The notes under the pieces: generated by a model
Seen by the model: only the letters and a program-made list of their open reading frames with translations
What the model was told of the DNA's origin: nothing
The model's database searches: none
Virus record (IMG/VR): IMGVR_UViG_3300021963_000181
Coordinates: 1-50,958 of that record
DNA from: a virus
Direction: 5' to 3' (one strand)
DNA: 50,958 bases
Made by a program: the position numbers and the translations under genes
In this document: positions 4,015-8,388 of the stretch, piece by piece
Numbering within the stretch: the first letter of the stretch is position 1
Layout: the number at the start of each line of letters is the position of its first letter

Positions 4015-5775
4015 TTAGCGGGTGCCGTATCCAGCTAGATATGCTGCTCTTGCACCCGCTGGTCGATCATAAGGATTAGGGGCTGCCCCATTTCCAAGTT
4101 GGATGCTGGTCACAGCGCTATTATTGTTTACTACTGTGTTGCCGCTATTTGCAACTAAACTACCACCCCTTGGTCCACGATTCTGTACTTCGTTTAGAGC
4201 GGCCTGTTCTTGTTGTAGTTGTTGTCCTGTTGTCTTTGGAACTGTAGTAATAGAACTTGGTTGTACCGGACCCGCGACCCAAAATTTGCCGCCCCTTGGA
4301 CCTGTTCGCCAATGTCCCGTTGTACCTTCTTGACTTGGTGGTGGTGTAGATGCTGATTCGCTGTCCCAATTGATCATCCAATCAGGCAAACCTAGCTGGG
4401 TTTTAATATTTTCCCAACTAAAGGTATTTGCTAGCCAATCCCACAAAGGACCAATAGAATTATCCCAAATCCACGCTCCCAAGCCATCGGGACCGACAAC
4501 TTCATTCCACGCGTTGGAAATCCACGCTGATAGGTCTGGGAATGTATTTTCAAACCAAGTCCACAGAGGTTTAACAGCAATGTTGTATATCCACTCACCA
4601 ATGCTTTCATATAGCCCAATGTATCCCCAGAATAAATCACTCAATGCTTGACCTGGATCTGTGAACAGTAGTTTAACCCAATCTACTGCGCTCTGCACCA
4701 TTGTCCAGATTCCGCCAATCATATTGTTAATGATTGTCTCAAAGCTCCAACCCTCAAGCCACTTAGCTGCGTTTTCAAACCCAAGCGCATCCAGAGCCCA
4801 GCCAACAATGTCCTTTAGCAGGTCAAGAGGTGCACCAACAAAGTCGCCAATGAACGCGCCAATACCAGCTACAAACTTGTCCATGAATGACCCCTCGGTA
4901 TTCATAAATGCCATCACGCCATCATATGCTGAGAACAAGAAACCAATTGGTTTGAGAATCTTACCAACAAAACCCGCAAACTTACCAATGTTTGCTACAC
5001 CACCAGAGATTCCTAACACGCTATCCATGAAACCAAGTAGCTTAGCGCCAGGACCAGCAGCCCAGCCTGAGATAGCGCTACCAACAGAAATTAGTGGGCT
5101 GATGATCACTTTCATCAAGTTGCCAGCCTTGGCTACAATTCTGCCAATCTTGCCACCATCTGTACCAACACCAAATGCTTGAGTAACATTCAGTCGCAAT
5201 AGGTCAAACGCTTCTGAGATCATTACAGCAGTTGTCTTCATCTCACGGCCTGTGAAACGTCCTCGAGCATCTCTTAACATCTTACCCGTTGCTGGGTTAA
5301 TGCCAAAAGATTTCAGAACCGAACGCATCATATCGTCAATACCGTTAGTCATTTTGAGTTTAAAGCTATCAGCTAGCTTACCAACACCTTCTACCAATCC
5401 AACAGCCAACTTCTTGATAACTGGAATTTCCCATCCACGCATTCCCACTATTGCTAATGGAAGGGCTGCCAACAACGGACCAAACATCTTTCCAAGATCA
5501 AGCAAATCGCCAAACGAACTTAAAGATTTCTGGCCCGCTTCCTGACCCGCTTCATAGTTTTTGGTGAATGTTGTTTTGTTTTTGTTATTAGCATCGCGGG
5601 CTGCTTGAAGCGCATCCATATCCAGCCGCTCAGCTTTTTTCTGCTCGAAGAACATTGTAAATGACTTGTTAAGAGATGTGGTCAGTTCACCAATTTTTTT
5701 ATTGGTCTGATCAGAAGCCTTCTGATTATGTTTTAGTTGAGCGACAACATCTTTTAACGTAACAGCTTGCGCCAT
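4015..5775 (-). CDS. Tail tape measure protein (gp29 position)
   Basis: A 586-residue protein, very close to T4 gp29 (590), implying a tail of similar length, since such proteins set tube length. The N-terminal ~60 residues are helical and charged. Several long hydrophobic/amphipathic segments follow (FGPLLAALPLAIVGMRGWEI; FVGKILKPIGFLFSAYDGVM; FVAGIGAFIGDFVGAPLDLL), as in tape measures that pass into the host membrane. A Trp-rich stretch lies at ~360-470, then a low-complexity Gln/Asn/Gly tail. Identity rests on length, composition and position directly after the frameshifted chaperone pair, the universal G-GT-tape measure order. Direct similarity to gp29 is not obvious. AAGGA precedes the ATG, inside the end of the chaperone extension. 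Confidence 0.75.
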   Translation of the reverse strand: MAQAVTLKDVVAQLKHNQKASDQTNKKIGELTTSLNKSFTMFFEQKKAERLDMDALQAARDANNKNKTTFTKNYEAGQEAGQKSLSSFGDLLDLGKMFGPLLAALPLAIVGMRGWEIPVIKKLAVGLVEGVGKLADSFKLKMTNGIDDMMRSVLKSFGINPATGKMLRDARGRFTGREMKTTAVMISEAFDLLRLNVTQAFGVGTDGGKIGRIVAKAGNLMKVIISPLISVGSAISGWAAGPGAKLLGFMDSVLGISGGVANIGKFAGFVGKILKPIGFLFSAYDGVMAFMNTEGSFMDKFVAGIGAFIGDFVGAPLDLLKDIVGWALDALGFENAAKWLEGWSFETIINNMIGGIWTMVQSAVDWVKLLFTDPGQALSDLFWGYIGLYESIGEWIYNIAVKPLWTWFENTFPDLSAWISNAWNEVVGPDGLGAWIWDNSIGPLWDWLANTFSWENIKTQLGLPDWMINWDSESASTPPPSQEGTTGHWRTGPRGGKFWVAGPVQPSSITTVPKTTGQQLQQEQAALNEVQNRGPRGGSLVANSGNTVVNNNSAVTSIQLGNGAAPNPYDRPAGARAAYLAGYGTR

Positions 5776-5777
5776 TT

Positions 5778-5963
5778 TTATGATCCTTTATTGTGTTCCT
5801 GCTGCTCTTTGATCCATTGCATTAGCAGCGTAACATAAACTTCTTTTTCCCATGGCATTAATCCGTCTATCTCATCTAGCGAAAAATTATGTTCACGCAT
5901 TAGTCTAAAGTTAGTCGTATAATAATTAGCTAGGGTTTCGTGAGATAGACATATTAAAAAAAA
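5778..5963 (-). CDS. gp51: gp51-like tail chaperone extension, read by -1 frameshift from gene 26
   Basis: A reading frame of 59 codons in the -1 frame relative to gene 26, entered at the slippery T_TTT_TTT (5957-5963) and ending with TAA at 5778-5780, two bases before the tape measure ATG. The amino-acid pattern LDEIDGLMPWEKEVYVTLLM and QWIKEQQEH matches the short C-terminal T part of tail assembly chaperones (acidic helix, Met-Pro-Trp-Glu, Tyr, Leu-Leu) and the small proteins labelled gp51 in cyanophages. An internal ATG at 5900 would give only a 40-residue protein and has no ribosome site. Production as a 295-residue fusion with gp26 is therefore favoured. Confidence 0.7.
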   Translation of the reverse strand, partial: FFLICLSHETLANYYTTNFRLMREHNFSLDEIDGLMPWEKEVYVTLLMQWIKEQQEHNKGS

Positions 5964-6664
5964 TTCTGCATACCTTCAACTGTGTAGGTATTAGCATGAC
6001 TGCATTGAACGCAATTAAAATGAACCTCGTGAGTCATCTTTGGAATTGTGTCAACAAAAGATCTTACCTTTTGCAACTGTTCATTTGTCATTGATTCAAT
6101 AAATTCTTCAATGTCTTTATGACTAACATCCTTTAAATCAATTCGTTCTTCACCCGTATGAATAGCTTTCATTACAGACATAATCATCTCAAACGTTTGC
6201 TCTGTAGCAGATGTAGAGTTAATCAGCTTCTTGTTTTTGACCATAGATCTAAAATGAGGATATGACATCTCAACGGTGATATTATCTGTTAGTTGCACCA
6301 TGAAATTTGTCTTGGGAATTGTAATCTCAATCGCTTGCAGATCTACTGCAACTTTGTTAGTGTGGTCACATTCCGAACACTTAACACCGATTTCACTTGT
6401 CTCACCAACAGACTTTGAACGAATCTTGATGAACATATATTCAATGTCAAAGGTTGTTAGACTATCTGGATCAATCTTCTCATCGACGCATGCAATGATT
6501 GTATCCAGCACAGCGTTCAATGCTTGACCAGCATCTTTTGTCTCCATAGCAAGCAAGAGGATCTTTTCCTCTTTTACAAGATATGGACGAAATTTGATTG
6601 CTTTGTTAGTAGACGGAATAACCAAATCATATTTTGGAGTATTATTTAACTTAGGTAGTGCCAT
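5954..6664 (-). CDS. gp26: gp26-like baseplate hub / tail assembly chaperone
   Basis: A 236-residue protein of the T4_baseplate (gp26) family. Residues 1-80 match the family's opening (KYDLVIPSTNKAIKFRPYLV, EEKILLLAM). Two CxxC pairs, C96/C99 (VKCSECDH) and C218/C221 (FNCVQCSH), suggest a bipartite zinc ribbon. In T4, gp26 is classed as a hub assembly factor. Here, the layout with a -1 frame extension followed by the tape measure indicates that it is the G component of a G/GT chaperone pair. The 0 frame ends NFF-stop exactly at the slippery T8 tract. AAGGA upstream supports the start. Confidence 0.85.
   Translation of the reverse strand: MALPKLNNTPKYDLVIPSTNKAIKFRPYLVKEEKILLLAMETKDAGQALNAVLDTIIACVDEKIDPDSLTTFDIEYMFIKIRSKSVGETSEIGVKCSECDHTNKVAVDLQAIEITIPKTNFMVQLTDNITVEMSYPHFRSMVKNKKLINSTSATEQTFEMIMSVMKAIHTGEERIDLKDVSHKDIEEFIESMTNEQLQKVRSFVDTIPKMTHEVHFNCVQCSHANTYTVEGMQNFF
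5957..5963 (-). promoter_or_regulatory. Candidate -1 ribosomal frameshift site T_TTT_TTT
   Basis: In the gene 26 frame the mRNA reads AAT TTT TTT TAA. The heptamer T_TTT_TTT allows perfect re-pairing of both tRNAs one base back and continuation as TTA ATA TGT into the gp51-like frame. The stop codon immediately after the site should promote slippage. No strong downstream hairpin is evident by eye. Confidence 0.7.
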
Positions 6665-6684: not shown

Positions 6685-7248
6685 TCAAACTACTTTCCAT
6701 TTGCGATATGATAGCTGAACAAGTAATTCAACAGTCGCATTTTCAGTAGCATCAGACAATTCAATTGCGGTAACGGTTGTGGGAAATGCTTCGTAAAGCT
6801 CGCAGGTATATACAATCTTATCAGCACTTACTAGATCAATATCAATAAAATTGTTGTTAAACAAAGGTAATCCAATTCCCTTTTTTAACTGGTGGATCTT
6901 TACAGTTTTAGCATACTCGTTCGTATATCCTATTTCGTGAGTATCTGGATCAATTGCAAGAGCTTGCCAATCTTCAAAATACTGCCGCACCTTGTAGTCG
7001 TTTGGTACATGGAAAGACATACTAACATCTTCTGTAGCTACACTGTAGGCGACTTTCTGATCAACTGCACCAATCGAGCGTGTGTTGGTAATTACTTGAC
7101 GACCTGGAAGATTTGTAGCTTTGCAAAGCAAATTTAATGTACGAGTTGACAAACCATTAATTGAAGGTAACTCGACTCTATAGAGGTTTGGCGAAGCCAT
7201 ACCACCACTTTGAGAGATTAGACTCTTTAGATCTTCAATACTGGCCAT
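6685..7248 (-). CDS. Tail tube-fold protein, gp54/gp19-like
   Basis: A 187-residue protein with the architecture of the T4 gp19 tube family: an N-terminal helix (SIEDLKSLISQSGG), PNLYRVELP opening the barrel, LCKATNLPGRQVITNTRSIG, VSMSFHVPNDYKVRQYFEDW, and a closing strand VELLVQLSYRKWKVV. The true major tube protein lies at 47189, so this is a second copy. By its place among hub/baseplate genes it is probably the tube initiator (gp54 role) or an inner hub ring, although T4 gp54 has 320 residues and an extra domain. It starts on a TAATG overlap with the upstream gene. Confidence 0.7.
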   Translation of the reverse strand: MASIEDLKSLISQSGGMASPNLYRVELPSINGLSTRTLNLLCKATNLPGRQVITNTRSIGAVDQKVAYSVATEDVSMSFHVPNDYKVRQYFEDWQALAIDPDTHEIGYTNEYAKTVKIHQLKKGIGLPLFNNNFIDIDLVSADKIVYTCELYEAFPTTVTAIELSDATENATVELLVQLSYRKWKVV

Positions 7249-7914: not shown

Positions 7915-8388
7915 CTATTTCTTAGTTGGATATGGCTTTAGCGGTTTTAGAGGCTTGGGCATGATTCCCATCTGCTGTAGATGGTGTTCAGTCCATATCT
8001 CAAAGCGCCATCCTCGATCAGCAGCATATTCAGAAGCAGCCTTCCACTTACACTGATTCTTAACATACGTCACAGCTTCGGTGACATACTGTTTGGTTTT
8101 GCGTTTGCCTGTAGGTGCTTTGGTCTGTTTGTCGGGCTTTATCTCGATCAGAAAAGTGACGCCCTCATTTGTGACATATTTTAGATCCACAAAGTATCTA
8201 TGGTAGCTTTTATCAACATCAAAGAAGTATGGAATGACAACTTCCTCCGACGACCATTCTTTGATCTGTGAATTCATATCGAGCCACTTAAAGCAATAGC
8301 GTTCCCACATTGATCTGTAAATGACGTTTGATGCATCACCTTTATATTTGTGAGGATTGATAACAGTGTATCGTCCTTTATATGTCAT
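7915..8388 (-). CDS. gp4: gp4 head completion protein, PD-(D/E)XK nuclease fold
   Basis: A 157-residue protein close to T4 gp4 (150), the head completion protein required before tail joining. Matching segments are the N-terminal KYKGDASNVIYRSMWE, EWSSEEVVIPYFFDVDKSYH and RYFVDLKY. The nuclease-like core is E29, D68 and E82-x-K84 in FLIEIKPDKQTK, the TnsA-type arrangement. The Lys/Pro-rich C-terminus (KPLKPLKPYPTKK) is slightly extended. It opens the minus-strand group. Its ribosome site AAGG overlaps the plus-strand late promoter of the opposite operon. Confidence 0.9.
   Translation of the reverse strand: MTYKGRYTVINPHKYKGDASNVIYRSMWERYCFKWLDMNSQIKEWSSEEVVIPYFFDVDKSYHRYFVDLKYVTNEGVTFLIEIKPDKQTKAPTGKRKTKQYVTEAVTYVKNQCKWKAASEYAADRGWRFEIWTEHHLQQMGIMPKPLKPLKPYPTKK

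Follow-up and report, generated by a model that had tools for sequence, protein, structure and literature searches.

The DNA analysed here, referred to as the window, is the whole of the viral record IMGVR_UViG_3300021963_000181 (IMG/VR; 50,958 bases), which carries a set of T4-like tail genes on its minus strand (Table 1). The phage is a marine T4-like phage and the window a metagenomic relative. No near match to its tail region at the DNA level was found among deposited phages, and the nearest isolate record, C48C1, shows about 45% identity in gp26. The gp26 homologue is placed between a tail tube gene on the upstream side and a large gene directly downstream. The latter is designated as the tape measure gene by position only: BLASTP detected no significant similarity between its product and T4 gp29, and its sole PHROG match is PHROG 27688, of unknown function. 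A separate peculiarity of the region is a match to the N-terminal domain of a TnsA-like endonuclease (E 1.5e-16) at 7915-8388, in the place where relatives have a head completion gene resembling T4 gene 4.

Table 1. Features of the tail region considered in this work (window coordinates).
Feature	Position	Strand	Basis
DNA end protector	7844-7248	-	tail region
Tail tube gene, upstream of gp26	6685..7248	-	PHROG 45 tail tube, E 6e-38
gp26 homologue, candidate short tail assembly chaperone (TAC-N, G-like), 236 aa	5954..6664	-	PF12322, PHROG 150, AlphaFold2 model
Putative slippery heptamer T_TTT_TTT, within T8 run 5963-5956	5957..5963	-	sequence and relatives
gp26 stop TAA, immediately 3' of the slip site	5954..5956	-	sequence
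-1 frame extension 'gp51' (TAC-C, T-like), 59 codons and stop	5778..5957	-	PHROG 634, tblastn, pN/pS
Probable tape measure gene, 586 aa	4015..5775	-	position only; family match uninformative

The gp26 reading frame (6664..5954, 236 codons) ends with ATG CAG AAT TTT TTT TAA. The run of eight T's at 5963-5956 is unique, in that no other T8 occurs on either strand of the window. Direct reading of the minus strand bears out what an earlier note on this DNA had described, namely a T_TTT_TTT heptamer at 5963-5957 ahead of the gp26 stop and a 59-codon open -1 frame (5957..5781; LICLSHETLANYYTTNFRLMREHNFSLDEIDGLMPWEKEVYVTLLMQWIKEQQEHNKGS), whose TAA stop at 5780-5778 falls 2 bases short of the ATG of the next gene at 5775. 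The 295 residues given there for the predicted fused product likewise agree with the sum of 236 and 59. The ATG at position 5900 does lie in the -1 frame, as had been stated; it is not, however, the sole ATG but the first of three, followed by those at 5858 and 5822. Comparable open -1 frames accompany 15 of the 60 mechanically defined ORFs of at least 100 amino acids in the window, and openness at such length is not significant when taken alone. Since open -1 frames are this common, the case for a frameshift depends on conservation in relatives.

Relatives of gp26 are present in 687 deposited phage records and tblastn matches of the extension in 597; the matches listed are in the -1 frame and start from the FF with which gp26 ends. 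To characterize the end of the gene, loci were picked by protein similarity, not by presence of the motif, from 80 viral contigs, named phages and further contigs. The pattern found, a codon ending in T followed by TTT and then TTN, occurs at 160 distinct gp26 ends, as T_TTT_TTC (109), T_TTT_TTT (43), T_TTT_TTG (4) or T_TTT_TTA (4), and at every one of these the gp26 stop comes 0 or 1 codon after the A-site codon. Chance was estimated after grouping at 50% identity, with a single sequence standing for each of the 28 groups and gp26's own codon use as the null. A T at both wobble sites is expected at a rate of 0.44 per lineage and was observed in all 28 groups, corresponding to a chance probability of about 1e-10. 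The -1 extension is open in all complete relatives (155 distinct), over 54 to 66 codons. Comparison of related phages shows that the heptamer in the T tract and the frame relation are kept, the heptamer being absent from three loci only: two Vibrio phages and one probable miscall. Closer to the window, six contigs from other metagenome samples (L001-L006; 83-88% gp26 identity) have the same T8, and a seventh (L007; 78% gp26 identity) has T7 with the frame relation unchanged. It is thus very unlikely that the T count in the window is miscalled.

The three loci that depart from the pattern are of two kinds. In a Stenotrophomonas phage record (L194, 2215-2325) the tract is T5, T6 being found in otherwise identical relatives, and the gp26 end is broken; the deposited sequence probably contains a homopolymer miscall here. 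The Vibrio phages 207E48.1 (L088, 3190-3240) and K382 (L098, 3180-3320) have a homologous -1 extension, CTT TTT or CTT TTC replaces T_TTT_TTN, and an ATG overlaps the gp26 stop. These phages may use re-initiation or another slip site.

Several lines of evidence concern the identity of gp26 itself. The protein matches the Pfam family T4_baseplate, PF12322 (E 4e-60; 203.5 bits against a cut-off of 24.5), and PHROG 150, baseplate hub (E 1.5e-64). At the sequence level, the gp26 profile matched nothing among solved structures. An AlphaFold2 model of gp26 (pLDDT 86.6) has the HK97 tail assembly chaperone 2OB9 as its top Foldseek match (probability 0.92), with an E value of 0.33 that by itself lends weak support to a chaperone fold. 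In a second structural comparison 3FGX, 2OB9 and 3KLU lead with Z scores of 8.1, 7.5 and 7.2 over 84-87 aligned residues, the next entry having a Z of 4.4. A Z near 8 is modest alone; the weight of the comparison lies in three chaperones standing clear of the rest over one domain. All three are phage tail assembly chaperones (PMC9603447). The fold that HK97 gp13 (2OB9), YqbN (3KLU) and RBSTP2171 (3FGX) share with the model is confined to its first 90 residues or so; gp26 is about twice as long as these proteins, and its second half lies outside their structures.

If the extension is reached by frameshifting, its coding character should begin at the slip site. Selection was therefore measured on 70 loci, the window included, that have no ATG, GTG or TTG in the -1 frame between the slip site and codon 15 past the gp26 stop. 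From 33 independent pairs, pN/pS over these first 15 codons is 0.22 for the -1 frame and 1.74 and 1.70 for the remaining two; in the same set differences number 170 at third codon positions versus 73 and 64 at the other positions. By this measure, a stretch beyond the reach of an ordinary start is selected as protein, and only in the -1 frame. The clade nearest to the window gives a weak signal over these 15 codons, on numbers that are small and not decisive. Entry from a point farther upstream is excluded in 26 of the 155 distinct loci, where the -1 frame is closed by a stop no more than 1 codon before the heptamer. The extension also aligns with positions 58-113 of the 121 in PHROG 634 (baseplate hub assembly catalyst; E 3.2e-24).

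These data bear directly on the possibility that gp51 is a separate small protein with its own start, made by re-initiation after the gp26 stop or from the ATG at 5900. Database annotations do give gp51 as a separate gene; an ATG overlaps or closely follows the gp26 stop in Cr30, Mendera, P10VF, ValKK3 and others; and the extension is retained in the Vibrio phages K382 and 207E48.1, which have no canonical heptamer. An in-frame start is present within 2 codons of the stop in 10 of 47 lineages, where re-initiation could yield a free extension. However, the first start lies at least 7 codons in for the other 37, and -1 frame selection acts on the first 15 codons even in loci lacking a start. The conserved extension of the window reaches its first in-frame ATG at codon 20, and the conserved residues LSH..L..NF precede that codon. 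As described below, moreover, both parts are fused in T4. We consider an independent gp51 very improbable.

The arrangement of start codons and the deposited annotations vary among these phages. The heptamer occurs together with a TGATG or TAATG overlap at the gp26 end of L084, L085, L086, L087, L089 and L100, which are Caulobacter Cr30, Stenotrophomonas Mendera, Rhizobium, Agrobacterium and Vibrio ValKK3 phages. Phages having both the heptamer and a stop-overlapping ATG could make the fused and the free extension alike. The deposited 'gp51' begins at an internal or late codon in L082, L091, L092, L096 and L097, and the annotation is without gp51 in L087, L090 and L099. Among the records examined, none marks a joined gp26-51 gene.

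A second alternative is that the extension is brought in frame by slippage of RNA polymerase, rather than of the ribosome, on the T8 run. Runs of this length are borderline slippage-prone for the polymerase. However, just six T's are found in 113 of the 155 distinct relatives, fewer than transcriptional slippage usually needs, and ribosomal slippage is favoured by that count. The exact retention of the X_XXY_YYZ form also speaks against the polymerase, whose involvement we judge slightly less probable still than that of a separate start. The least probable view, that the T run is miscounted or the gene broken and the real gene one continuous frame, might appeal to the T5 of L194, but it is refuted by 155 distinct loci, drawn from many samples and isolates, that show the same out-of-frame relation.

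As for possible stimulators of ribosomal frameshifting on T_TTT_TTT, no clear one is evident in the window among those sought (3' structure, Rfam families, a consensus fold, an upstream Shine-Dalgarno-like site). The 3' structure of the window is not strong, with a z of -0.34 over 86 nt and of -1.5 to -2.0 over 60 nt at offsets of 5-8. The downstream RNA has no match in Rfam, and no consensus RNA structure was found in 19 relatives, mostly of the T8 type. In a set of 47 lineages, the mean z relative to shuffles is -1.64 for the 60 nt that begin 4 nt past the slip site, with 40% below -2; control stretches elsewhere give means between +0.2 and -0.8. Some lineages may therefore carry a stimulatory hairpin. 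In P-SSM2-type cyanophages (L101, 2208-2274, and relatives), a hairpin GTATGGCTCA...TGAGTCATAC lies a few bases past the slip site; it is 91.7% paired over 24 sequences, with minimal covariation. As for the Shine-Dalgarno-like site upstream, it is on average slightly stronger than in synonymous variants (-6.37 versus -5.32 kcal/mol; Wilcoxon P 0.001). The site of the window, however, is weaker than expected, and we do not claim it as a stimulator. Several lineages have neither an obvious 3' structure nor an upstream stimulator, and the stop is always close to the slip site. It is conceivable, though unlikely, that the gp26 stop is the main conserved stimulator, that hairpins and Shine-Dalgarno-like sites vary with the lineage, and that, where an ATG overlaps the stop, the same site may give both fused and free extension.

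In T4, gp26 belongs to the same Pfam family, and gp51 consists of a gp26-like N part followed by the same C part as the extension studied here. Comparison by hhalign pairs the N-terminus of T4-type gp51 with the gp26 family (171 columns, E 2.5e-14) and the final 40 residues of gp51 with the extension (E 1.8e-5). The models of gp26 and T4-type gp51 have an identical order of helices and strands, gp51 having four more helices at the end. The second structural comparison, run against the PDB with the T4-type gp51 model, retrieved no chaperone. In contrast to the window, T4 has its long form on an in-frame gene of its own, with no frameshift; genes 26 and 51 are there in divergent orientation. That T4 genes 26 and 51 are separate is thus accounted for by the long form having its own gene, and is not a failure of the fusion idea. 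The gp26 genes of the T4-type phages Cronus and Henu6 have no slip site at their end, and gene 25 comes next.

The order of genes in lambda is V-G-T-H, and the order tube, chaperone, extension and next large gene in the window is the same. As with lambda gpG/gpGT, a -1 shift shortly before the short gene ends would give a short and a long chaperone. The lambda slip site is G_GGA_AAG; here it is T_TTT_TTT with the stop directly after it, the comparison with lambda being one of gene order, shift position and slip site.

Altogether, these data suggest, with a probability that we put at roughly 0.93, that a -1 ribosomal frameshift on T_TTT_TTT gives a predicted gp26-51 fusion beside the short chaperone gp26. 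Most ribosomes would terminate at the TAA (5956-5954) and yield the 236-residue gp26, while a minority would slip 1 base back on the heptamer, where both Phe tRNAs can re-pair perfectly, and continue in the -1 frame to make the 295-residue protein. By analogy with gpG and gpGT, gp26 would coat the tape measure protein, whereas recruitment of tail tube subunits would fall to the additional helices at the C-terminus of the long form; both proteins are expected to be absent from the virion. The shifting itself, its efficiency and the binding roles of both forms we infer. What can be read in the sequences is the slip site, the frame relation, the selection on the extension and the homology to the fused gp51 of T4; the predicted fold is chaperone-like. 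The proposal of the earlier note that gp51 is the T part of a predicted gp26-51 fusion, in this phage and perhaps in relatives, finds support in the conserved heptamer and frame, the selection from the slip site onward, the chaperone-like model of gp26 and the fused T4 gp51. Identification of gp26 as the short, G-like chaperone and of gp26-51 as its frameshifted, GT-like long form is thus supported by sequence and model alike.

A -1 frameshift was reportedly proposed for the tail assembly chaperones of T4-like phages, poly-T shift sites included, by Vladimirov, Gautam and Davidson in 2022 (Virology 566:9-15). As far as that work is represented in the passages of later papers that cite it, it concerns the same genes and the same -1 frameshift idea, with poly-T signals as in the window. 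The paper on PRFect (PMC10885494) cites it for a short gene and a fused long gene in some T4-like phages, and PMC12846349 refers to it on poly-T signals for a -1 shift within the TAC-N genes of this phage group. A passage in a 2016 review described G-T frameshifting as widely conserved 'except T4' (PMC5009743). The mechanism has thus been known for T4-like phages since 2022, and the window adds one more well-supported case.

The annotation of many genomes from cyanophages and their relatives either lacks gp51 or gives it as a gene of its own whose start is doubtful. The frameshift is indicated to be the common arrangement in sampled T4-like phages, the two separate genes of T4 being the exception. 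For gp26 and gp51, long-puzzling 'baseplate hub' proteins, the evidence supports a clear role as short and long tail assembly chaperones.
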